Source: Dinochytrium kinnereticum
Taxonomy: Eukaryota > Chytridiomycota > Chytridiomycetes > Chytridiales > Chytridiaceae
Length of the DNA: 26,421 nucleotides
Assembly: GCA_027604005.1 (NCBI GenBank)
Contig: JADGJT010000281.1
Coordinates: forward strand, 4,949-31,369
Reading direction: 5' to 3'
In this document: one piece after another, positions 1,735 through 24,767 of the stretch
How positions within the stretch are numbered: position 1 is the first letter of the stretch
Layout of the letters: every line of letters starts with the position of its first letter
Program-made: the position numbers and the translations under genes
Notes under the pieces: model-generated
What the model was told of the DNA's origin: nothing
Databases searched by the model: none
The model's input: only the letters and a program-made list of their open reading frames with translations

Positions 1735-3997
1735 TCAAATCTTCTTAACAATCTGTACAACATCTTCATCCGTCAGCTCATGCTCCTTCCCAACCCTCTG
1801 AGGCTGATGCTTGGCCGAAGCACCCCAGACAAGCGCGTACTTGAACTCCTTGATGATGGCCTTGTGAATCGTGTCACAGAACTTCTCAACCGTCGCCTCG
1901 GATTTCTTGATGACAACGGGGGCGCTGTAATCGGGAAGCTGGCCTTTGGGTTTCGTGTAGATTCGAGCGAGGTTGAGGTATTCCCACATCTTCGTTGTTT
2001 GTTTTTTTTTGTTTGTTTTTTTTGGAACGGGGGGAGGGCGGCAAAGGAGGGAGGGAGGAGGTTAGGAAGGGGAAGAAAGGGGGGAAGGGAATGGGGGGTT
2101 GTGGAGGGTTGGAGGTACCTTTTCGAGGAGCTCGTCAAAGTTCCAGCCGTGGTGGGCGCTGATCGGGATTGAGTGGGGGATTTTGTAGACGATGTCGAGC
2201 TCTTCGATGGAGATTTGGTCGATTTTGTTCAGGACGTAGACGCAGGGGATGTAGACTCGGTTTCTGAATAGGAAGAAGATGATGATGAGAACAATGAAAT
2301 AAGGAAGATAAAAAAAAACTAGTCCAATAAATAACGAAAAAAAAACATAAAAACAACAAACAACAACATTAAACCCTATGAGAATGCCCAACCGAAACCA
2401 CTTTTGAATAAACAAGAGAGGAAGAACAAATAAAAACAACTAAACGCCTACCCCTCAATGACATCAATAAGATCATCCGCAGTGTAATCCCCCTTAAACG
2501 ATACGTCGGCATTATGAATCCGATACTCCGACAAAATCGCCTTAATCGAATCATTATCCAAAAACGTCAACGGCACCGTCGACGAAACGCTCACCCCCCC
2601 CTTCTCCTTCTTCTTAAAAAAGATGCCAGGAGGCTGCTTATTCATCCTAATCCCAAACCCTTCCAACTCCCTCTCGATGACCCTCTTATCTCCAAGCGGT
2701 TTCAACACATCCAACACGATGAAGATCAGACTGCATGTGCGGGCCACCGCGATGACTTGTCGACCTCTTCCTTTACCGTCTTTGGCACCTTCAATGATAC
2801 CTGGGAGATCGAGCATCTGGATTTTGGCGCCCTTGTATTGGATCACGCCGGGGACGGTGGTGAGGGTTGTGAATTCGTAAGCGCCGACTTCGGAGTGGGT
2901 GCCGGTTATTTTTGACATGAGGGTGGATTTGCCGACGGATGGGAAGCCTACAAAGCCTACTCTTGCCACTCCCTATATTAATCATTTTTTTGTCGTTCGT
3001 GTTTGTTAGAACGATACGATGAGAGTGAAGGAGAGAGGTAAGTCGTGCTTGAGGTTTCATTTGGATAAGGAAAGAAAGGTAAAAAGGAGAATTATGGACG
3101 TACCGTTTTGGCGACATCGAACCCCGCTCCAGGACCTCCTCCACCCCCACCGCTGGGAGTCAACAGCTCTCTTCTCAATTTCGCAAGTTTCGCCTACCAA
3201 AAATGCAAATAAAAAGACATTCAGGATGCTACTTTCAAGCGTATTCCCCCTCTTCTTGTTTTTTCTTGACGTTATCCCCGCCGAGTGACGATAGAAAGCC
3301 CAAAAAAATATAAATGCAAACCTTTAGAATACCCAAATGGTAAGACGTGGCCTTGTTCTTTTGAGTTCGAGCCATCTCGGACTCGATCTCTTTGATTTTC
3401 TTTGTGGGTTCAGTGGTGGTGAGGGGAACAAATAGGTGAGTTATCTTTCATATGTAGAGGATTGTGAAGATGAAAAAAAGGAAACGCTCAACAACTTCTT
3501 TTCTTTTAAAAAGGAAGTGTGTGAGGAAAAGCAAGTTTCTGCCGACTAAAAAAAAACTTGAATGCCTATTTCATACTATGCAATCACTATATATCCATTT
3601 CATCGCCGTCTGGAGTATACCAAGGCGTGATTGGCAGCATACCACATAAAAACGCCGATAGACTTCCAACCCCCAACGTCAAATACCACCTATAAAAAAC
3701 TTCCGCCAAAACGCTCTCCAGCCCTAAAAAAAACTTCACCGCCCTCAAAACAACGCTAGAATGAAAAATGGCTTCCAACCCAACTTGGCTTCGTTATTGT
3801 TTTTTTTCTTTCGCTCTGCGTCCAGACGTCCCGACGACTTTGACACAAGAAGAATATAGACCAGCTCCATTCCCCCCCCTTCTCCACTTGTCATCCACCA
3901 TTCAAAGGGACCAACCCCTTCTCCCTGGCCCTCATCGATTCAAACTTGATATGGCAAATTCCAGGATCGTGAAATGGCTCACCTCTACGATGGACAT
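1735..3997 (-). CDS. RBG1: DRG1/Rbg1 developmentally regulated GTP-binding protein
   Basis: Translation-associated GTPase of the Obg/DRG class. In yeast, Rbg1 pairs with the DFRP protein Tma46 and binds ribosomes. Six exons (3997-3983, 3399-3322, 3193-3104, 2972-2452, 2263-2119, 1989-1735) join in frame to 367 aa, matching the family length of about 367-369. An N-terminal helix ([18 protein letters not shown]) leads into a Gly-rich linker. The G domain has the P-loop GFPSVGKS (about residue 68), DLPGI, NKID and a SAH motif. The C-terminal part is a TGS domain with YTKPKGQ. The start was chosen because a 15-nt exon encoding MSIVE, ending at a GTGAGC donor, supplies the expected short N-terminus after a 583-nt first intron. 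Two acceptors are AAG (before 3399 and before 1989). The core is certain; the tiny first exon is an inference from frame and family. Confidence 0.93.
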
Positions 3998-5058: not shown

Positions 5059-7198
5059 ATGAAGCTTCTTCACATCATTCTCCTGGCGGCGGCTGGGTGC
5101 CTTGCATCCGCTGATCCCAACTTTCCTAAGGACAGGGTCGACTTCTTGCAACCGCAAAGAAGCTTTTCAAACTTTGGCCCAGAAGATGATGTATCAATCT
5201 TTGCGGACTCAGATTCCTATCTAGAATCATTGGCTGAGCCCGAGGCTGCTCGAGAGCGCGAATGGAGTGACTTGACAGAGAACAACTACATGGATGACTC
5301 TCAAGCATCCCGATACAACCCTGAAGATTTAATGGGTGGATGGGAGCCTAGAATGGAAGGGTCCGACTTCCTCTCAGATGACTTTCCCGCCCCTTCCAGA
5401 GCCTCCAACAGCGACGGACCCAATCCCTGGTTCTCGTCGGAATCCAAATCAATCAATGGAGACAGAGCCGTTCGTGACGACTGGAAGGATGCTCGACCAA
5501 ACCTACTTGCTCCAACCAAAGATGATATCTTCGGAACAGTGGATGAAAAGAGGAATGACGCTGCGGAGGGCTCTGTGGATGGAGCCGGGGCTGCTGGGTT
5601 TTCAGAGTTCCATCCACCGAGGACTCCTATTCGCGCTGTGGATGTGAGGACGGGCAGGCTTCCGGAGGAGAATGAGTTTGTGGGAGTTGCTCCAGCAAAG
5701 TTTGTTGGGAATCGTATTCAGAGGCCAGCTGCTGGATCTAGACGTAAGTTCAACTTCCTCCTTTTTTGCTTGCATATCATTTTCCTAGTTGAGCATTTGA
5801 CCAACCGTTCGCTTCCCCTTTTGTATTTCAGTGAAGGCTGCTGACGTTGACTCGCCAAGCCCTACCACCACCGAAAACCTTCGAAGCACAACTGTGGCAT
5901 CCACAGCCACTGGCACAGCTGAAGCCCTCGTTCCAGCCGTAAGTTTATAACTCGTTATTTATGTCGCAAATTCTAAGTTATATGTCACTCTATCGCAGAT
6001 TCCGGAGTTTTTAAAAACGTCTACGGTCGCCGTTCCGGGCCTTACAAACTGCCAGACGAATTTGATGTTGAAGCTGGCGGCATTTTACGAGACTGGGAAT
6101 TCTGATCTGTTTTACGGGAGGTGTGGACCCATGGATAGGCACCATGGTTATGCGGCGGGATACGTTGACCTTACGACGTAAATATCGTGCTGCGTCCTCT
6201 GTCTTTTGTCGTTGTGATGGTTGGTTTTCGTTATTGACACTTTTCTTGTAGTAACCAAGGAAGTGTACTTCGAACGATCAAGACTTATGTCGCCTCGTTA
6301 CCAGAAGGGACGGAAAATCCGTTCCAGGAATGGATGGAGCTCCTCCAAGACACTGCTTCCGGTTTCGCCAACCCCGATGATATTGTTTACTTTGAAGGGT
6401 GAGTAATTCCTCTGAGAGAAGGGTCTTGGGCAGTTCCTTTTTTAACATCGACCTTAAACCAGATTCTGTGACGCCTGGAGAGAAACATCGAAGGAAAAAA
6501 CATTCCGCGAAGCCTTTGACACCACTCTCAAAGATCTCTACATCACCCCAACTCTCGACGCTGCTCGTTCTCTCCACCTAACCCAACCCCTCTCCATCAC
6601 AATCCTCTTCGATTCAATGCTCCATCTCGGCCCCAAAGTCCTCGACTCCCAAATCATCCCGAACATCACCCGCGAAACTACCGTAGCAAAGGATGGTGAA
6701 GCAACGTTTATTTCTCGCTTGATTCTCTTGAGACAACAGTACCGTATCAAAGCTTCTAAAGCCATGCAAGAGGCGATGGATAATGAAGACGGTGAGGCAG
6801 ATTGGGATACCTCCCCGGATGGAAAGTGGGAGGCTGGGTTGGCAGCTTACGCTTCGTTGATTGTTGCGAATGGGAAGACAAAAGAGGGGGTGGCGTTGAG
6901 TTTGAGCATGAATAATACTGTGCTGAGGGTTGCTGGGGATGTTAATGGGACGAGCAAGGTCAGCATTTCTTGTGATAAGGTTGATGCTGTGACTTTGCGA
7001 ATGGCGGGAATGGATAGGGCTGCTGCTAAAGACGGGTTCTTGAGTTCCGAGAATTTTAACTTTGCTGACCCGAAACCTATTGGGTCGTGGCAGAGGGGCG
7101 GAAAGACCAACTCGGCAGGTCAACTTGGAGAGATGGGGTTAAGATGTAAGGTTGCTGCGGGTTTCTGGATCATGGTGGCTGTGATTCTAGGAGCTTAA
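5059..7198 (+). CDS. secreted GH46 chitosanase with acidic N-terminal extension
   Basis: Predicted endo-chitosanase hydrolysing beta-1,4 bonds of chitosan. Exons 5059-5743, 5832-5938, 5999-6177, 6252-6398 and 6463-7198 join in frame to 617 aa. The start at 5059 gives a clean signal peptide (MKLLHIILLAAAGCLASA). Residues about 20-260 are an acidic, Ser/Pro/Asp-rich region without a recognised domain, followed by a Ser/Thr-rich linker. From about 280 the GH46 pattern appears: AAFYETGNSD with candidate general acid E295, then YGRCGPMDRHHGYAAGY with candidate D310 in the place of the DGRGYTGG Asp of Streptomyces chitosanase. FCDAW, REAFD, LYITPTLDAARSL and LFDSMLHLG follow, as in the family. The last 20 residues are hydrophobic, compatible with a GPI-anchor signal. 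The fold call is firm; the two catalytic assignments rest on motif alignment by eye. GH46 is mainly bacterial. Confidence 0.85.
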
Positions 7199-9234: not shown

Positions 9235-12200
9235 CTACTTCCCAACTTGAATATCACCACCCCTTTCCCCATTGCTAAAGTTATTCAAACCTGCATCCTG
9301 ATCAAGCCCTTCGTTCATATCTCTATTCAACGCAATCTCCCCGTGATGATTTTGGGGTGGTGGTGGAAGTGTAAATCCCTCACGTAGCTTAAAGTCTGAA
9401 TCAAGCATTCCACCTCCAAGGCTATCCCAAACTGGGAACGGGAGGGGACGCCGAGTTGTGTAGTATCGGTGTTCGCTGTTATTCTTTGACTTGTCCTGGC
9501 TCTCGATGAAGCGCTCGTTGCTCTACCAAAATAATAGGGGAAAATATGATCAGATAAGGATGCGGAAGAGAGAAACCAGCATCCTACCAATTCTGTCACA
9601 GGCACCCTGGGGACCATCTCCAGATAGAGTTTCAGCCCACAATCATTACAAATTGTTTTAAACCCATCTGTGCCATTCCTCCAACAGACCGTTTCCGTAA
9701 CCCCGCACTTCTTGCAACTCTTAACATCCTCCATCTCAATATCTCCATTATCAATGCGAGCTTTCTTAACAATTCTTCCATCCTCACCCTCGTTCATATC
9801 TTTGCAATCCTCAACACGCTTTGGCGGCCCGGTCCTATACAACCCACTGCATCCCCATAAAGCCCATGGGAATCCAGGCGGAACGAGTCCGGTGCAAACG
9901 TAACGAAGCGCCTTGCGGATAGAGGTGTGGTTACGGACCGCTTGCTCGCCAAATCGGTTCATGAGTTTCGCGAGGTTTCCGGTGGCGGGATCAGTATTTT
10001 CGGGGTCGAAGGGTTCGAGGGCTTTGGATGAGACCACTGAGCTATGAAGGACAGCAGTTTTAGGTGGTGGTTAATGTGAGCCGTCACAGACAAAGCCTAC
10101 CATGAATTGTCTTCAAAGTATCGAACTACGTAAGACCCAGGATTCATTGATTTCACAGGAATAGAGTCGTCAAGTTCTTCCAGAGGTATTATCTGATTTC
10201 AAAGTGCTCAGTATGCTGCTGTGAAGAGGAGTCGCAGTGATAGGTGAGACGTACCATGCCAGGCCACCAGATTTGATTATCCTTCACCTTCATAAACTTG
10301 TGTGGGACGACAAACACCACAGACTGCATTTCAACGGGTGAGGTGAAGAATATAACACGCATATATATCAAGATGCAAGAACAAAGGAATCAAAAACAAA
10401 GCTGATTAGAAAAGGCAAAGCATGAACATGCCAGCTTACCCCCTCCTCCAACCACTCCTCTGCCTGGTCTCCCCACTCCTTCTCAAACGCCTCCAAAATA
10501 GACTTCTCCATATCGTCCTCCGATCTGTCTACGATGCATTCAACGGCTGTCCTCAAATCATCCTCTACGTCCTTTATCGAAAGGTAGCCGCCCTTAGGGA
10601 CAGCCGAGAGGGTGTGATGGGATGGCAAATCTGGGTCAATGGTACCAAGTTCAGGGATTGATATATCGAGACGAGCGGTGATAGATGCGAGTGTTGGGAT
10701 TGTTGGATTTGGTTTCGGTGGTGGGGTTGATTCAAGCGGAAGGCTTTTTCGAGACGCTAACAATTCCAACAGGAGGTAAAAAAACGCAAGGTTAACCACT
10801 TTAACGCAAATAATGATAATAAGCCTTACTTCTTCTCTTTCTAGAGCCATTTACTTCCTTTACAGGGACAATACCCGCTTTCCTCAAACCCAGACATCCC
10901 TCCCAGACGTCCTCTCCAACCTCTCCTTTCGCACCCCACCTGCTCCACCTCATCGAAATGGAAGCTCTACCTCCCTTTGCAGCCTCAATCGCCTTCAAAA
11001 CATCCTTCCTTCCCAACCATCCAGGCAGACATCTTTCCATAGTCGCTGCCGGCTCGCTTCCAGTCGTAGGGTCAAGCAATCTGAAATTGGAGATAGCAAT
11101 ACCGTTTCGAGAAGACCTTTTACCGCCTTGTGGGTATTGATAGGGGCAAACAGTCCCGTAAGCCCCGTTTGAAAAGTATCGGATCACGACGGAGGTGGTT
11201 TTGGGGTCCGGGCGTGGCATTGTTGCGTCCCACTCCTCAGAGGGAACTATTATGGCGGCTGACCAGGAAGGGGGTTCGGAGGGTGCCGCGTCGTTGACAA
11301 GGACGACATACCGATGATCATCTGGTATTGTAGGAAAGGGAAGTTAAAGAGGATAAGAATATAAATGATGGCATCAGATGGGATGGAACTTACAATCTGG
11401 CACAAGGTACCCCGGCATCACTGAGGAATCAGGAACCTCATCGACGGAGACGTGTTGAGTCAGCTTTTGGAGTCGACGAAGTACTCGTCTGACCTTATCC
11501 CGCTCTCCGATCGTGAGTCTTGAAGGTTTATTGTCAACTGGTGGCAGGGGTTTCATTGTAGAAATATCTTCTTCTACTTTTGGCCCTGAAGCCGAAAAGA
11601 TGGTTAGATTTCGACCGTGCGGAACGGTGAACTGTAATGGAAAGACAAAGGAAAAATCTTTGGAAAATAAATAAACCTGACGAAGCTGAAGCACGCTCTT
11701 TAACTATGATAGAAGACCCAGCTGAAATGCAAAAAATATCACGCTCAGATTACAAACAAGAAAGACATCGTAGCCACCAGAAAACAAATCTTCATACCTG
11801 TCCCCTTGGCCCCCTTCCATTGAAGCTCTTCAGCAACCAAATCCCCCTTAAACAACCCTCCCAAAATATGCATAACTGAGTAAACGTTGAAAGAATTCCC
11901 TAGCATCCCATGGCGTTGCGGCCTCCGTGCCGATTCAGTTTCAGTATAGAAGTCGGGAAAGCCCATCAGACGCTCGACTAATTTGAATTAGGATCATATT
12001 AAGATTGGTGGAGCTTACTTTCAACTGGATGATAACTTCGCCGTTTTCCATCGGGGTACCAGAGAACATTGAAACGACTGTCACCAAGGTGAGGAGAGCT
12101 ATTACCCTGTAAGCATAGTTAGAGAAAATAAATTGCGAATAAAGTCTGACTTACTCTTGTTATGCATTGTGCTTTAACAATTTCACTTTATTGTTCTTAG

Positions 12201-14306
12201 GGTTAGAATTGGCGCGCTAGGAGAAGGCCCTTTTTTGAAGTCAGAAAAGACTTACGGAATAGCCTCGTCTAAAACCACTTCCTGAGTAGTCATTGGTCTA
12301 TCCTGAAGATTCTGAGGGATCTTTCGAATGGGTATGTTGGTCCAAAAGAGGCGATTACGACGGCATGCGGAGAGATCAACGGAGTCTATGACATCATTAG
12401 ATTCATCATCAGATCAAGGCATATCGGAAGAGAACAGATTCTCACCAACGGCGGTAGGTTTAACGCCCAATTCTTTCGAAATAATATTCATATCCTCGAC
12501 CCTCATCCTAACATTCTCAAACAAAAACCATCTCGGTTTTGTTTCTTTCAACACCCTCACATACTCGAAAAAGAACGAGCTTTGTTCTCCCTGCACAACG
12601 CCTGCACCCTGTCCCAAAAAGCTTAAATCTGTGCAAGGCGATCCTCCAACCAAAAGATCCACAACAGGTTCTCCCCCACCTTTCGCCCAGGTAGAAAGCT
12701 TCTGGCTCTCAACCGTGTTTTTAAGAAGCCTCGGAAGATCTTTGACAGGGTTGAACTTTGTGACGTCTCCAACTTGAATAACGTTGCCGCTGTGGGATTC
12801 AGCATAAGTGTCGAGAACTTCGCAGGCCGTGGTATCAATCTCGCTGCTGAGATAGGCAGAGGGCTGGACTCCTAGGCGGCGAAGGGCGATGTAAGCTGCG
12901 CCAATGCCGTCAAAAAGGGAGAGCACAACGGGCTTTGAACGCCAGCTGGGGTTGCCCTCTATTTCTTTGTGGATGGCCTTTATACTATTAATAAAGCATA
13001 ACATAGGTGTATGTACCTGACATGTGCTGCAAAACCACTCAATATCTGGGACGTGATCGAGGCCGAGACATTTGATATGGAATACAGCGGGGCAGCCGTC
13101 GCAACACATAAGCTAAGAAAATCAAAATATCAACGCTAAAACTTTGACTTATAACAGAAACTTACCTCTCCATGCTCATTACAGATAGCGCATATATTAT
13201 CGCTATCATCTGACTCAGATTCTTCATCATCTGAGTGATATGTCTCCCTGATTCTTGAAGCAGCCTTTGAACGCTATTAGTAAGGCGGAGACAATAGCGG
13301 ATATACTAACAAGTGCACGAAGCGCTTTCAACTTGCACTGTGCTCGTTTCGGACAGGTTCCTATTTTATGGAATTCCCAAATATTAAAATTCATTCTGCC
13401 TCAAAGGCACTTTAATCTCTCAAACCTTTACAGTGGCAGCATTGCCTTTGAGAAGCGTTAACAAAAACTATGTGGAAACAAAAACATTACCAGTGATCAT
13501 CAGACTCAGCGATATCCCAATCCCACCCTTCACGAACGAAGCACGCTCTTCGCATGGAGCAGAAAAGAGCAAGCAGATCAGACACTGTTAAAAACCCACA
13601 GAGACTCCTGGACCTACTTGCAAACAACATTCCTACAAATCGGCCTAATCACAGATGGCGTCACTATCCCAATGCCCTCTCCTTCGTCCTCCTCTTTCAC
13701 ACCTGACCCTCTCGTTCTTTTCCTCTTACCCGACAACGCCCCGCCATCCGCTTTCCCAACAACCTCATCTGGCCTCTCCTTTTCGTTCGAACAGACCATC
13801 ATTTCGCTCCCTTCAGATCTCCCACAGACATGACAGCAGTCACTGGACATGTCCGGGGGTTCGGAAGGGTCGGAGGCATCAGTTTCAGCAAGGGCGGAGT
13901 TCTTTGAACGAGGTTTGCGGGAAAGGTATTTTTCTCTTTTGGGAGTGTTAGATAGAGTTTGCGAGCACGATATTGAAGGAGCATGACTGAAAGAGGATGG
14001 TCTCACTTTGCCAGTAGCGTCGGGACGATGTTCTAAATCAAAAGATACGTGGTTTTAGAGTCGTTAGACCCATAAGCCGCATGCAGTGGAAGTAGAAGGG
14101 AGACAAAGCACATGAATGGTGAGAAGAAAGCACTGACAAGTTCCCCACCCCATTGAGTCGTGGAGAGACACGATCCTGCGCACCATCCAAACCGCAAGCA
14201 AACCGAAAATCCTTACCTCGGCCTCACGAAGAGCCACCAGAGCGGCATCCAGCTTGCATTCGGTGATGCATTGCTTGAGCTTCAGCTGTCGAATGATGGG
14301 ATCCAT
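9235..14306 (-). CDS. DNMT3-type cytosine-5 DNA methyltransferase with zinc-finger, PHD, PWWP and GATA modules
   Basis: Predicted nuclear enzyme moving methyl from SAM to C5 of cytosine. From 13112 down, exons 13112-13017, 12977-12446, 12385-12256, 12185-12155, 12106-12019, 11977-11798, 11721-11677, 11585-11394, 11321-10830, 10756-10440, 10323-10255, 10192-10101, 10041-9588 and 9522-9235 keep one frame for 1,001 codons. Upstream exons are 14306-14217 (tentative), 14032-13618, 13547-13491, 13445-13426, 13360-13311 and 13264-13166. Order: Cys-rich zinc finger (CCHVC, ICRNVVCKACF, HWQCCHCKGTC); PHD finger (ICAIC, MCCDGC, FHIKC, FCSTC); MTase; PWWP-like; PWWP; GATA finger (CKKC-x18-CNDC). MTase motifs: LSLFDGIG, SSEID, VGDV, GGSPCTDLS (catalytic Cys codon 12635-12633), FLFENV, ACRRNRLFW, CITRGNSS, ERLMGFP, GMLGNSF. 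The short target-recognition region and GGSPC-DLS favour DNMT3 over DNMT1, DIM-2, RID or DNMT2. The 5' end is unresolved: exon 14306-14217 does not meet the next in phase. Confidence 0.88.
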
Positions 14307-14437
14307 ACAAAAAAGTGACAAACTGGTTGTGAAACGGTTTGAGGCAAGTAAAGGGTGTTAACATTCCATTTGCACCAATGTGTTTTACAGTTTCGTGAAT
14401 TGTAAAGCGGCCATCGCCGACATGAAGAGAGTAGCAG

Positions 14438-15832
14438 CTACCAAAGACGTAGCTGGAGGTACACAATGTTAAGGCTCTTATCAAATTTTGTCCCGACGTC
14501 CGTCAGGAATCCCTGGACCTTGAAGCCAAGCTTCTGAAGGAGATAGATGTGGTTCGCATGGCGAAGCTCCGGCATGTCTTGAGTATAAATTCAGAAAGCA
14601 TTGAATAGTGTATACTTACTGAGAAGATCTCGGAATCCGTAACTTTTTGCCCTATCTATAAGACTCGAAACAAGGCTTACACCAACAGGGGTGTGATGAT
14701 GCCCATGATGAACAAAGAAAGATATCTCCCGTGTTCTAATAGCGCAAAAGGTTAAAAAAAACACAGAATATATCACAAGTAATTCACCTGTAGAAACCAT
14801 CCCTGGCCACGTGAACCGGCAAATGCCCATAAGCTGCCTATAGAAAGTGCGGTTAGACTGAAGAAGTAAACAACCAAAACACATACAACAGTTCCATCGT
14901 TCGCCACAGCAACAACCAAAGGATTCTTCCTCTCAGCCGAAAAAGTCCTCAAATATACTGCCGCAGCATCAACACTTTGCTCAACTGTATCCCCTGTCAA
15001 AGTCCCATTCGAGATCTCCCAATTGTAAATCTCTATGATCCCCTTAAAATCTTCCTCCGTCGCATCTCTGACAGTATATCCCGGCGCATTCCTGTCAATC
15101 TCGGGCTCAGCACTTGCGACAGGAACATCGATTGATGTCTTGACGTCCGAACCATCTTGAAGCGCACACTGCATGTAGATGTCGTCAAGGTCACGATCGA
15201 ATTTGATCATGATTCCTTTGAGGAAGATCATTCTTTTAAACCCAAGTGAATCGAAAAGCCCTAAACTCTTTTCGTTTTCGGCGCAGATGGAGGCTATTTC
15301 AGATTTGTTATGGCATTGACTATCAGTAGATGCTTACCTAGCATGGTTTGATACCCTAGCGCTTTTGCCCGCGCCATCATATGCTGGACAACCTTGCGTC
15401 CGATACCCTTCCGGTGATAGTCACGATGAATGGCAAGGCCAATTTCAACCGTCCTGTTTGCATGAAGTCATGAAGCTCTTTAAAAACAAGTGATAATACA
15501 AGCAAGGAACCATTGCTCACTGACTTTGCGAAGGCCGGCAAAGAAATGTAGCTCCTCAGTCCACAGCTCCCGACCTGTAAGAACAAATCAAGACAGTGAG
15601 AAACCGGTTGAAGCATTGACCGCATGCATCTCACCACAACCCCATCCAAAGTTGTTACTGTGACAAGAGGCTTTGCAGGATCCCCGGAGCAGCTATTGAA
15701 CCACTGCAACCTATCCTCAAGTGTCTTTGCATGGTAGTCCGCAAATGCCGTATTGTTCAGGATTTCCCAGTTCTGGATCTCCATGATACTCGGCACGTCG
15801 GCCTCGACGGCATCTCGGATGATCACCTCCAT
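14438..15832 (-). CDS. tandem-domain GNAT acetyltransferase (phosphinothricin acetyltransferase-like)
   Basis: Two GNAT N-acetyltransferase domains in one 358-aa protein, both of the Pat/Bar/YncA type that acetylates small amines. Exons 15832-15635, 15574-15525, 15453-15338, 15293-14887, 14837-14788, 14735-14620 and 14577-14438 join in frame. Domain 1 (about 1-175) opens with IIRDAVEADVPSIMEIQNWE and has TVEIGLAIHRDYHRKGIGRK, the acetyl-CoA loop with GIG intact, then SICAENEKSLGLFDSLGFK. Domain 2 (about 192-358) repeats the plan: YTVRDATEEDFKGIIEIYNW, then REISFFVHHGHHHTPVGVS, where the GxG loop is lost, then HANHIYLLQKLGFKVQGF. The two intron positions flanking each acetyl-CoA-binding strand are similar in both halves, consistent with internal duplication. 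The last acceptor is AAG. The substrate cannot be inferred. The stop lies about 130 bp before the presumed start of the methyltransferase. Confidence 0.88.
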
Positions 15833-15948
15833 TTTAGGTGAACACCAAGCAACGTCCAGATCAAAAGTTGAACGATATACTGCAAGATCCGACGGTAGCT
15901 CAAATCCAATGGACTGGTAATTATTGGGTTTAATTTAATTGAATATGA

Positions 15949-18296
15949 TCATTGCTCTTCTGTGGTGATCTTTCGCTTCTTCTTAAAGCGATCAACGGCA
16001 GAATACGCGCGCTCAGGCTCTACGATGCCTTGCGCACGCTTCTTTTCACGCTCTTTCTCACTCCTCTCCTTGTTAAGACCTTCGATAAACGACGCCTAAA
16101 AAATCGGTTAATCACGTTACATCAGGTATAAAGCAGGAAAGATAGTGGCTAACTCCAACTAAGTCTACTCACCCGCTTTGGATCCAAGATATTTGACTGC
16201 TTTCGGATGTACCTTCTCATAGCCGACGACTTGCCACGAGCCCTCTGTCGGGGGGTGAACTTCTCCTCTGGGTTATTCGCTTCAAACTGCCTCTTTTTCT
16301 CCACCCGAAGAACCTCCTGTGGTGTCCTATCCACAGTACCAATAACAGTGGGATCAAGTGAAATCATCTCAGGTTGAATCTACCAAACAGTTAGATACAA
16401 ATATAGCATGAAGGCACGACCAAAACAAAGGGAAAAAACCAACCTTCTCCAACAGAGCGTGCACTTCTGTCGTCTTCCTCTGCTTTTTGGTCTGGAAGGG
16501 GTTGGCTTCCATGGCGTCGTAGTTGGGCTCTCCAGAACCGGGAATGACGAGGCTAGAGATACCTTTGGCGTGCCCAAATCCGAGAACATCTTCGTATGGG
16601 CAGAACCTCAGTTTGCTCACTCGGGATCCTGGCTGGAGGTGATTCATGTACGGAGACTCGGCTTTGGTTTTAATAGCGTCCTTCCAGAGCTGTGAGCACA
16701 AGATGGCATTAACTTAGTCATTTAACAGCTGTCAAGTTTGGTGGTCTAAAAAGAAAAAAAAAAGCCTCACTGTCACGTTGGGTCCATAGCCAACGGCCAA
16801 AATTCCCATTTGACTGATGTCGATAGTGGTAGCTGGTGTAGGTGTAAAATATTGCTCGACAGCCTTGTAAGTTCGAACGTCCCACACCTTCATTTGCCCA
16901 TCCAATCCCGTTGTGACCATGTAACTTAATAAAATGAACGCACCAAGTGTCAAAAAGCCGTACGTAGAAATTTGAAAAATCAATCAGGACTTACGTTCCA
17001 GATCGATCAATCGCCAGCGACTGCACTGGTCCACGATGGCAAAGCATTTTCACCACGGGCTCGTTTACACTAGGGCTCCAAAGAGTAACAGTGCCTGCGA
17101 AATGAGGTTCAATAATAGACAAGTAGAACGGAAAGGAGTTATTTGAAGTGGAACCCGGCTCACCATTATTGTGTCCTAAATGCAGAATCGCATTATAAGG
17201 GTTCTGCCTCATAGTTTTGCACTCTCCCAGCCGCGTCTTTTGCTCAGCAACAACCTGTCCTGTTGACGTATCCTGATAAAGGAGCCGTCCAGGTTTTCCC
17301 TAAGAAATCTTCTCAGTATCTTTGGTCAACGACCACCTATTCTCACGTACCACTGATGCTAGGAGGAAATGATAGGGTAAGAACTCCAGACAATTTACTT
17401 CAACGTGCTTCTGGAGGCAGTGAATTTCCATTCCAGTCTGATCGTAGATATAGACAAACTGCTTCTGGGCGACCGCGAACATGGTCTCATTGTGCAGCCA
17501 TCTTTGAACGGGAATAGATCGTTAGATATAGAATACTTACAGGGAAAAGAAACCTGGGGGACCCTACCTAACATCTCGAATCGTCTCCCGAACATGCAAC
17601 TCGCATCCTAAAGCCTTTGACTCCCAGTTAAAGGTAGCAATGTGGCCTTTCCGTCCACCTATCAGCAGATTCCTTGAAAACAAGGGTGTGAGAATCCCCA
17701 TCCTCCAAATCAAGCTTGTAATTCACCTTCCGTTACGGGTATAATCCAAAGAATAAGGTCCAAACTCATCCAGCTTCAGCTCAAAAATCTGGGGAAAGAG
17801 GAGTCAGCCTTTCCGTCTGCTCATTGTATTGGAAGATCCAGCAAAGCCCGCAAAGTCTCCAACCTTTCTCTGATTGTTAAGATCAACATGGTCTGCAAGT
17901 TCCTTTTGGCTCAGCTTATAAGTCCTTTCCATCCCTTCTGCCTCCAAGTAACCAGCCTCCTCCATGAGGAGCCTTTCCGTCTGAGCAGCCTTTTTAGCGG
18001 CATCGTCGTATTTTTTCGCAATTTTCCTGAGGTTCCCTTTCAATTTCTTGTCGGTGATGCTCTATTATTAATTCTTAGCATCCAGCATGAGTGGCTAGAA
18101 GTAGGAGAACCTTGATGGGGAGGTTGACTTTCTCTCGTTGGTACTTTTTGACCGCGGGATCCTGTGGAGGTGTCTGGTGGTTGTCTTTTGATGCGGAGGG
18201 GGATCTCTTTGTGCGTGGCTTCCTCTGAGGTCTGTCCTCAGACTCTTGTGATGGCTTGCGACCGACGCCTTCGTCAGTAGGCGTAATTGAAGGCAT
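15949..18296 (-). CDS. UTP7: UTP7/WDR46 (BING4) U3 snoRNP WD40 protein
   Basis: Component of the small-subunit processome needed for 18S rRNA maturation in the nucleolus. Eleven exons (18296-18111, 18061-17864, 17788-17727, 17672-17568, 17501-17351, 17299-17164, 17094-16995, 16924-16771, 16689-16444, 16379-16173, 16095-15949) join in frame to 563 aa. A basic N-terminus (about 1-65) is followed by a coiled helix ([20 protein letters not shown]), WD40 blades (for example [48 protein letters not shown]) and the family-specific BING4CT segment ([36 protein letters not shown]). A Lys/Arg-rich tail ends in KRKITTEEQ. Three acceptors are AAG (before 17672, 17501 and 16924), each forced by unbroken homology across the junction. 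It is transcribed divergently from the gene at 18690 and lies about 115 bp upstream of the GNAT gene. Confidence 0.95.
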
Positions 18297-22433: not shown

Positions 22434-24767
22434 ATGACTGGAACCGCGGTTGCTCGCCCTGCACAGCAAAGTTTGGATGCAGGGAATGGGATGAACGGGG
22501 TCGATAAGACCTTGGTGAATGGGAACCACGGCAACTCAAAGGCGGATAAAGACAAGGAAAAGAAAAAGAGGCGGAAGAAGAAGCGGAGGGATGCATCGAA
22601 CAGAAGAGGGGAAAGCGCCTCAGAGTTGGAGACTACCGTACGTTTCTAAGGGCCTCTGCATCTCTGTTCATTCAATGCAAAACTCACCGCATTCTCTTGG
22701 TTCTTGTGAAAATGCATATGACTGTCATCTACAACTTCACACATACAGGATAAGGAAGATGACGACCTCGCCAACGTTGAAATTGAGTACGTTGCAGCTC
22801 CCACATCCGCCCTCTTCGAAGACGAAGCATTCAAAGATTATGAAAAGGTGTTTGAGCGATTCTCACTGACACGGGCTGATGCAACGGAAACAGCCAAAGA
22901 TGAGGATGAGACTGCAGGTGATGCAAGCGGGACAGCCGGAGCCGACCAAACTGGTGCAAAAGACGAGGATGAGGAAGATGAGGAGGAGATGTCAAAAAAG
23001 AAGAAAAGGTTGGCTCAAAGGCTCTCGGTTGCGCAATTGAAACAATTGGTTTCGAAGCCCGATGTAGTTGAGGTGGGTTATTCAGCTTCATCTTCTTCAA
23101 CTGTTATGATTTTTGGATATCTAATGTTTCGTTTGCGGCGACTCATAGTGGGTTGATATTACGGCGGCAGATCCGAAACTTCTGGTTCATCTTAAGGCTT
23201 ATAAAAACACCGTCCCGATTCCGATTCATTGGCAACAGAAACGAAAATATCTACAAGGAAAGCGAGGAATTGAAAAACCTCCTTTTCAACTTCCAGGTAT
23301 CTGATCTTTCAGCTCTCAATCCCCAAAGAAACTCAGTACTGATGACGACGTTTTTCTGTAGACTTTATTAAGGCCACCGGCATTATGGAGCTTCGAGAGA
23401 CTGTTAGAGAGAAGGAGGAGGCTGGAGGACTGAAAGCAAAAGCACGGGACCGGATGGCGCCAAAGATGGGAAAACTGGATATTGACTATCAAAAACTTCA
23501 CGATGCCTTCTTCCGGTGGCAGACAAAGCCCCCGCTCTCGATTCACGGCGATCTGTAAGTTGTGGTTTTATTCATAAAGCCAATACCCCCCCCCCCCCCT
23601 ACCTGCGTGTTTTTCCTTGTTAACTAACACACAACTACTTAACCCAGTTACTACGAAGGCAAAGAGTACGAAACAAAATTGAAGTTAAAAAAACCGGGTC
23701 AACTCTCTGACGAACTTCGACTAGCCCTTAACATTCCTCCGAATGCGCCACCTCCTTGGCTTGTAAATATGCAGCGCTACGGTCCACCACCCAGTTATCC
23801 ATCTTTGAAGATTGCAGGGCTTAATGCTCCGATCCCTGAAGGTGGGCAGTGGGGCTATCACCCTGGAGGATGGGGAAAGCCACCTGTTGATGAGTATGGG
23901 AGACCACTTTATGGGGATGTTTTCGGAGTCGCTGGCCAGGAGGCGCCATCAATGGTAATTTATTTGGCTTGGGGCATTTTATTCTCTTGCCTCGTTTGTC
24001 GACTCTCGTATCGGTCAGCACCTAACATCTTTTTGTTTATGAGCAGTACCTTGCCGAGATTGAGCGCAAGATATGGGGTGAGCTTGAGGAGGAGGAAGAG
24101 GTAGAAGAGGAGGAGGAGGAGGAAGAGGAGGAGGCTGAGGAGGAGGGTGGCGAAGCTCAGGCTGGAGAGGAGGAGCAATCTTTCCCGATGGAGGGTTTAG
24201 CCACCCCAAGTGGTCTCTCAAGCGTCCCAGCGGGACTAGAGACGCCCGATTTTATCGAGCTCAGGAAGGATCGGAGGTTAGTACCCGTTTATTTTGCTGG
24301 GTTTTTTTCGTTATTGTTTAAGAAAAGAAAAAAACATCCGCGACTCACATTCAACTGCAAACAGAGACGAGGGCCCAAAGGATCTTTACACAATCTTACC
24401 CCAAAAGGATGTTGCCGTCAAAGGTTTCATGGGAAGCGCACATACTTACGACCTATCTGGCGTCTCCGCCCCTGTCTCCGCTCCCTCCGACTCGACCCCC
24501 GCAAAAAAGCGCAAAACCGTCCCTGGCGTTATTGACAGCAAAACAGCTGTTGAGGTCGCTCTCAACCCTGAAGATCTTGAAGGGGGGTTACACGGAGAAG
24601 CGGTTAGGAAAGCCTACGAGGGAACTGTCAAAGAGAAACAGCAGGGGAGTAAGATGGAGGACTTTTCGGATATGGTCGCTGAGCATGCCAGCCGACAGAG
24701 TAAGAAGAGAAGAAAGGGGGAGGAAGAAAAGAAGGGAAAGAAGGAGAAAGATAAGTTTAAGTTTTAG
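22434..24767 (+). CDS. CUS1: splicing factor SF3B2/Cus1 (SAP145), U2 snRNP SF3b subunit
   Basis: Subunit of the SF3b complex of U2 snRNP, which holds U2 at the intron branch site and contacts SF3B4/Hsh49. Seven exons (22434-22637, 22749-23072, 23149-23296, 23362-23554, 23648-23954, 24047-24276, 24365-24767) join in frame to 602 aa. A Lys/Arg-rich N-terminus (KEKKKRRKKKRR) and an acidic stretch are followed by the DUF382/SF3b2 domain (about 177-300: DPKLLVHLKAYKNTVPIPIHW, IEKPPFQLPDFI). The PSP motif (about 310-345) is LNIPPNAPPPWLVNMQRYGP, then YPSLKIAGLNAPIPEG and WGYHPGGWGKPPVDEYGRPL. A very acidic Glu run spans about 398-428. The tail is Lys-rich. All acceptors are CAG or TAG. The fourth intron contains a run of about 14 C. 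AATAAA lies about 40 bp after the stop. Confidence 0.95.

Follow-up and report, generated by a model that had tools for sequence, protein, structure and literature searches.

The window analysed here, 26,421 nucleotides (nt) of contig JADGJT010000281.1 from the chytrid Dinochytrium kinnereticum (Chytridiaceae), carries on its minus strand a gene (9235..14306) predicted to encode a DNMT3-type cytosine-C5 DNA methyltransferase (MTase) with candidate chromatin-reading domains. The gene comprises 21 exons and 20 introns and encodes 1,224 amino acids (aa) in a single frame. Exons 1-7 lie at 14306-14217, 14032-14007, 13935-13618, 13547-13491, 13445-13426, 13360-13311 and 13273-13166; exons 8-14 at 13112-13017, 12977-12446, 12385-12256, 12185-12155, 12106-12019, 11977-11798 and 11721-11677; and exons 15-21 at 11585-11394, 11321-10830, 10756-10440, 10323-10255, 10192-10101, 10041-9588 and 9522-9235 (all minus strand). 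Upon scripted splicing of the window all 20 introns were GT-AG, with lengths of 37-184 nt, and the exon chain is further backed by deposited models from the same contig (P0001) and from relatives (P0002-P0006). A one-frame chain over ~5 kb, as an earlier note on this DNA had proposed, was thus upheld (14306-9235, minus strand). The length of ~1,245 aa given there was exactly that of our initial chain, but the words shared by P0001 and P0004 (REAENIVPTLLAKE / ENIVPTLLAKE) fixed the first introns and revised the product to 1,224 aa. A 31-nt exon with GT-AG flanks (12185-12155, minus strand) completes the target-recognition region; it encodes the start of the target-recognition loop, EIVKAQCITR, which aligns with KKVQTITT of DNMT3B.

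A CDCA7-like zinc finger and a PHD finger lie N-terminal to the C5-MTase; on its C-terminal side come two PWWP domains, then a GATA finger and lastly a conserved tail. A Pfam scan of the 1,245-aa chain gave five matches at E<=1, all over the Pfam cut-off: DNA_methylase (81.2 bits), PWWP (44.6), GATA (33.4), PHD-1st_NSD (32) and PHD (26.5). With profile comparison and fold evidence added, all the domains that the earlier note had read from the DNA (zinc finger, PHD, intact C5-MTase, two PWWP-like repeats and GATA finger) are present.

The MTase domain (aa 271-558; 11850..12932, minus strand) was assigned by Pfam, PDB and trees. It contains motifs I (LFDGIG), IV (GGSPCTDLS), VI (FLFENV), VIII (RRNRLFW), IX (ERLMGFP) and X (GMLGNSF). 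When three chytrid rows were compared with three animal-type ones, neither the core residues of motifs I, IV, VI, VIII and IX nor the glycine of X varied. PDB rankings of this domain cover the best 60 of 64 matches. There, the methyltransferase (METHYLTRANSFERASE) matched DNMT3A/B/C chains with 82.9-112.8 bits, DNMT3B and DNMT3A at the top, followed by DRM2 (74 bits), HhaI (38-42), HaeIII (31-35) and DNMT2 (18-27); none of these matches bore the name DNMT1 or DNMT5. DRM2 has rearranged catalytic motifs. When the N-terminal half of the domain was searched alone, DNMT3A again came first (49.6 bits), with DRM2 close (46.9 bits). The target-recognition region is short, as the earlier note had stated: motifs VIII and IX are 69 residues apart in 4/4 chytrids measured and 69-71 in 4/4 animal-type DNMT3s. 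The spacing is 69-220 in prokaryotic and phage-type enzymes (6/7 measurable), with the prokaryotic-type P0254 also at 69.

The established fungal enzymes DIM-2, RID/Masc1, DNMT1, DNMT5 and DnmtX share the C5-MTase fold. In contrast to them, the chytrid protein has no BAH, RFD or SNF2 match (Pfam, E<=1), its C-terminal half being PWWP-PWWP-GATA. Identity with DIM-2, RID, DNMT1, DNMT5 or DNMT2 was rejected on Pfam, PDB ranking and trees (the trees contain no DIM-2, DNMT5 or DNMT1 rows). The domain lies outside DNMT2/TRDMT1 in both trees, and the genome has a separate DNMT2. On PDB ranking, spacing and trees, we firmly predict the methyltransferase to be DNMT3-type.

The protein begins with a conserved segment (aa 1-46; 13914..14306, minus strand; LKLKQCITECKLDAALVALREAENIVPTLLAKEKYLSRK), similar words of which occur in P0002 and P0004. 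The zinc finger that follows (aa 72-179; 13335..13838, minus strand), of a type left unnamed in the earlier note, resembles a zf-4CXXC_R1 (CDCA7-type) finger that has diverged; a long loop separates its cysteines 3 and 4. After the loop was trimmed by hand it scored 21.4 bits against PF10497 (E 2.9e-4; cut-off 22.7). The fingers of Blyttiomyces sp. and Phlyctochytrium scored 22.3 bits (E 1.5e-4) and 10.4 bits, respectively, and that of Chytridium gave no match. A PDB search with the zinc-finger alignment returned mostly iron-sulphur proteins and zero CDCA7 or zf-4CXXC_R1 chains. Variable spacing of cysteines 3 and 4 is shared with fungal class II CDCA7F, as described in a section of PMC10538959. 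Unlike CDCA7 and CDCA7F, the chytrid finger is fused to a methyltransferase and falls under the Pfam cut-off; a separate zf-4CXXC_R1 match in the same genome (C84:16002-16232, 32 bits) is a candidate CDCA7F.

The PHD finger (aa 213-255; 13017..13198, minus strand) was recognised by both Pfam PHD-1st_NSD and PHD. Its best solved kin among single PHDs are AIRE (50.9 bits), ZMYND8 (49.0) and CHD4 (44.1), then TRIM66, TRIM24 and PHF21A. Of its single-PHD kin, we take AIRE, TRIM24 and BHC80 to bind the unmodified H3 tail.

Downstream of the MTase lies a diverged PWWP domain (PWWP1; aa 654-772; 10969..11397, minus strand), assigned by profile comparison, the relatives' Pfam matches and fold. The window's own PWWP1 sequence had zero Pfam matches and zero sequence kin in the PDB. 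Profile comparison with the second PWWP gave 97.1% (E 6e-11), and 1/5 members of the PWWP1 alignment matched Pfam PWWP. Further support came from the fold of the corresponding part of the predicted Chytridium model (P0003). The whole-protein model, built with six sequences, is otherwise poor (mean predicted local distance difference test score 39.4). The top row of the P0003 fold search, a TRIM33 PHD-bromodomain chain, spanned low-confidence parts and was not interpreted. PWWP2 (aa 920-1027; 9894..10454, minus strand) matched Pfam PWWP with 44.6 bits (cut-off 25.6) and, weakly, PWWP domain-containing protein 1 (2l89, E 0.001) and the DNMT3B PWWP (E 0.0019) in the PDB. In Dinochytrium its WWP is kept, as is the tyrosine of the YF strand. 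The GATA zinc finger (aa 1087-1116; 9627..9716, minus strand) scored 33.4 bits (cut-off 26.8). It is followed by a tail (aa 1122-1182; 9364..9611, minus strand; ELSNERFIESQDKSKNNSEHRYYTTRRPLPFPVWD) that is highly similar in P0002, P0003 and P0004 and matches zero Pfam families.

Relatives were found in seven more chytrids: Phlyctochytrium planicorne, Chytridium lagenaria, Irineochytrium annulatum, Blyttiomyces sp. JEL0837, Chytridiales sp. JEL 0842, Blyttiomyces helicus and Thoreauomyces humboldtii. Taxonomy was checked for 6/8 species, all Chytridiomycota, with Thoreauomyces belonging to the Spizellomycetales. Over the aligned catalytic domain, identity to the four closest species is 73-83%, which argues that the family is not a chance assembly. 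The order PHD-MTase-PWWP is found in 6/8 proteins, with PWWP under the Pfam cut-off in two of these. When the window protein and six relatives were scanned, MTase was over the cut-off in all seven, PHD in six, PWWP in three and GATA in three; below the cut-off, PWWP appeared in two more and GATA in one more. P0005, for which the precomputed domain list was used, has PHD, MTase, PWWP and GATA. Note that the P0003, P0006, P0023 and P0024 models seem to have missing or disrupted parts. The deposited models of six other species join PHD and MTase, and five of the six continue into the PWWP region. That the chain merely runs two genes together was rejected on the deposited models of other species, in which the two halves are joined.

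The domain content suggests a chytrid DNMT3-type cytosine-C5 DNA methyltransferase that carries its own chromatin readers, which we consider a probable reading of the sequence. Its role is likely de novo cytosine methylation guided by these histone readers. By analogy with animals, the likeliest arrangement would be one in which the H3 tail, together with H3K36 methylation or DNA, positions the writer. PWWP domains bind methylated H3K36 or nucleosomal DNA. Through the PHD and one or both PWWPs, the enzyme would be directed to particular nucleosomes; the CDCA7-like and GATA fingers would contact DNA or nucleosomes, and the MTase would then methylate unmethylated cytosines. This logic would be shared with animal DNMT3, but the parts differ, and some lie across the catalytic domain from where animals have them.

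Several observations weigh against this reading. The MTase is ~37-46% identical to prokaryotic and phage-type enzymes (main set) versus 30-35% to animal-type DNMT3, a raw comparison to be read with the long branch of the animal DNMT3 rows in the tree. Near the CpG-reading arginine of DNMT3A, which we take to be R836, Dinochytrium has R and Blyttiomyces sp. has T. Multi-PHD NSD2 chains head the PHD list (66.1 bits for the whole chain; 39 for the best single PHD). Reading of H3 unmodified at lysine 4 (H3K4me0) is thus unsure, since both the best whole-chain PDB rows and the best Pfam family are NSD-type. The first position of QIWWP in PWWP2, presumably the first position of the aromatic cage, is a seemingly non-aromatic Q. 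This residue and the divergence of PWWP1 make H3K36me reading unsure. The catalytic PC motif is missing from the deposited models of Blyttiomyces helicus (P0023) and Chytridium (P0003). Finally, CpG observed/expected is 0.83 in the genome (18 pooled 10-kb samples), 0.82 in the gene's exons and 0.64 in its introns. This mild depletion is weak evidence, compatible with some CpG methylation but not proof of it.

The descent of the catalytic domain was analysed in two trees. Three protein searches, each scoring ~8,000 candidates, provided 22 rows, the best 120 of 197 and the best 120 of 5,310. Tree 1 has 60 rows (8 chytrid, 7 animal, 7 dinoflagellate-like, 34 prokaryotic/phage and 4 outgroup) and represents 54/138 P-numbered rows. 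Tree 2, in which animals are more numerous and 7 rows are unnamed, has 61 rows and represents 56/258. Between the two, three long dinoflagellate-like rows, three animal rows, the own-genome DNMT2 and some prokaryotic rows were dropped. P0001, being the same gene, was omitted from both, and no named row fell below the script's limit of 80 aligned columns. Group labels were assigned in this analysis for most prokaryotic/phage rows, most dinoflagellate-like rows and, among the animals, P0049 and P0052. Both trees were built without plant, amoebozoan, ichthyosporean or diatom DNMT3 and without DIM-2, DNMT5 or DNMT1 rows. In both, the chytrid clade falls within a DNMT3-type node, with HhaI and DNMT2 outside that node, and in neither is it nested within the prokaryotic clade.

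A vertically inherited DNMT3 of the opisthokont or last eukaryotic common ancestor, retained in Chytridiomycota and lost in other fungi, with readers gained independently of animals, has in our view about an even chance of being correct. Tree 1 places the chytrids in one clade (100/97) and joins them to animal and dinoflagellate-like rows (92/80), with 31 prokaryotic rows in a separate clade (99/96) and 3 grouped with HhaI. The motif VIII-IX spacing of 69 fits this origin, and part of PMC12344493 traces DNMT3 to the last eukaryotic common ancestor. However, the 92/80 node is not starred, and once more animals were added three lines were unresolved beneath a node of 99/98. Tree 2 recovers chytrids (100/99), animals (100/100) and prokaryotic enzymes (99/97) as clades and joins chytrids to dinoflagellate-like rows (93/89). 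Moreover, approximately unbiased (AU) tests on the tree 2 set gave p 0.417 for chytrid+animal and 0.491 for chytrid+animal+dinoflagellate-like, and thus did not discriminate.

Somewhat short of an even chance, we would place the capture of a separate prokaryotic or phage DNMT3-like MTase, fused by a chytrid ancestor to its own PHD, PWWP, GATA and CDCA7-type domains. The likeness to animal DNMT3 architecture would then be convergent, and the protein would still be a chromatin-guided DNA methyltransferase. Raw identity is greater to the prokaryotic/phage-type enzymes, which were also the next-best matches after chytrids in the chytrid-profile search (best 120 of 197), and the accessory domains are ordered unlike those of animal DNMT3. 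A chytrid+prokaryotic clade survived the AU test on both sets (p 0.18 for tree 1 and 0.391 for tree 2), as did chytrid+animal on the tree 1 set (p 0.301). As none of these arrangements was rejected, the AU tests do not tell an inherited DNMT3 from a separate capture. On the other hand, tree 1 joins the chytrids to animal and dinoflagellate-like rows (92/80), tree 2 joins them to dinoflagellate-like rows (93/89) outside the prokaryotic clade (99/97), and the target-recognition spacing is that of DNMT3. The enzymes in question, some of which were named DNMT3A by JGI (e.g. P0041), are ~37-46% identical to the chytrid domain over the aligned core. They differ in a mostly longer target-recognition region, and the non-chytrid rows (best 120 of 197) lack PHD, PWWP and GATA in precomputed domains.

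It is improbable that the protein has lost its catalytic function, or acts on RNA, and serves chiefly as a chromatin scaffold. In favour of this, the PC motif is missing from two deposited models, with P0023 having different residues at that position; the ~ten residues absent at the site in Chytridium P0003, however, look by eye like a gene-model error. Against it, Dinochytrium, Phlyctochytrium, Irineochytrium and Blyttiomyces sp. all have intact motifs I to X, and motif IV is retained in Chytridiales sp. P0006 and Thoreauomyces P0024, whose models break in the target-recognition part.

The earlier note's assignment to the DNMT3 clade stands as regards enzyme type, and the MTase lies outside DNMT2 and HhaI in the trees; membership of the eukaryotic DNMT3 clade by descent is left undecided by trees and AU tests. 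Its placement of the readers on the opposite side of the catalytic domain holds for the PWWPs and GATA finger, but the zinc finger and PHD are N-terminal, where animals have ADD.

Returning to the reading of a DNMT3-type writer with its own readers, the closest known systems are animal DNMT3A and DNMT3B. They provide the nearest solved catalytic domain (113 bits), equal target-recognition spacing, a PHD-type reader directly upstream of the MTase and a PWWP in the same polypeptide. In contrast to their PWWP-ADD-MTase order, the chytrid protein has two PWWPs, both C-terminal to an MTase of 30-35% identity, as well as a GATA finger and the tail. It has no ADD family match at E<=1, the zf-4CXXC_R1-like finger and a plain PHD standing in that place. 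According to a portion of PMC13297926, ADD reads H3K4me0 and PWWP reads H3K36me in animal DNMT3. Dinoflagellate-type DNMT3s (P0015 of Prorocentrum cordatum; P0014, P0094 and P0128, unnamed), sister to the chytrids in tree 2, have no chromatin readers, and their flanks resemble reverse-transcriptase sequence by eye. An excerpt of PMC12344493 lists PWWP and ADD as DNMT3 companions in animals, a DUF in land plants and none identifiable in protists and algae, and a passage of PMC9998398 describes microalgal DNMT3s without chromatin domains. Among other DNMTs, the ChloroDNMTs of green algae bear a PWWP.

For fungi, passages of four papers describe DNMT3 as missing from all fungi (PMC7862722), absent (PMC10538959), found in canonical form in none of the fungi surveyed (PMC13297926) or typically lacking (PMC12344493). 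In the chytrid Spizellomyces, 5-methylcytosine is restricted to transposons, as stated in a section of PMC12695648. We found no description of a chytrid DNMT3 in the open-licence literature, a scope outside which most subscription papers and preprints fall. A DNMT3-type enzyme in a fungus, rarely or never described according to the earlier note, is supported in a genuine chytrid host, and the conserved chytrid family, a DNMT3-type writer with readers on both sides, is apparently undescribed.

The deposited same-contig protein P0001 (2,098 aa; window 9235-18100, minus strand) fuses the methyltransferase with a UTP7-like gene of the small subunit (SSU) processome and GNAT acetyltransferase segments. 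It also misreads the zinc-finger exons, and this faulty annotation conceals the enzyme. Presumably as a consequence, P0001 carries the name of an SSU processome component, which may be why the enzyme was missed. Elsewhere in the window are a DRG-type GTPase exon (2448-2969, minus strand; MMR_HSR1 and MMR_HSR1_Xtn), a match to glycosyl hydrolase family 46 (chitosanase; 6458-7195, plus strand; 33.8 bits) and a PSP-domain exon (23643-24101, plus strand), presumably of an SF3B2/CUS1-type splicing factor. Bacterial contamination was rejected in view of the 20 introns, the eukaryotic neighbour genes and the relatives in seven other chytrids.

The genome has four C5-MTase places over the cut-off: the gene described here, DNMT2 (C203), an HhaI-like enzyme (C36) and a DNMT1-superfamily enzyme (C120). 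The HhaI-like gene (C36:58253-59717) is split by apparent introns, and its joined pieces score 158 bits to HhaI. The C120 gene (C120:1686-4103) has GGLACGPWS as motif IV in place of GGPPC and a segment upstream that is BAH-like by eye; it perhaps belongs to the RID/DIM-2 line. Searches of the genome for SRA and DNMT1-RFD gave no match, but as the controls gave none either, this does not demonstrate absence. Among the other proteins found, P0025-P0032 hold tandem pairs of DNMT3-like methyltransferase units in single proteins of 558-590 aa, with P0032 (924 aa) bearing an intein-like insert; they are perhaps of phage origin. When viral contigs were scanned with one phage-type enzyme, two loci emerged, which were not used further.

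In conclusion, we slightly favour the view that Chytridiomycetes have a DNMT3-type de novo methyltransferase whose single chain holds two PWWPs, a PHD that reads the H3 tail and a finger of the CDCA7 type, assembled independently of animals and in another order. If this is true, DNMT3 became combined with PWWP and an H3-tail reader at least twice. The chytrid protein is a natural second case of a DNMT3-type MTase fused to PHD and PWWP readers. The family contradicts the published absence of DNMT3 from fungi, at least for DNMT3-type enzymes. Two questions become testable with it: does fusion to a PWWP cause gene bodies to be methylated, and by what route do chytrids initiate methylation? As part of one polypeptide with the writer, the CDCA7-like finger would link a CDCA7-like module to it directly and physically. 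The finding may reopen the question of how fungi set up DNA methylation.

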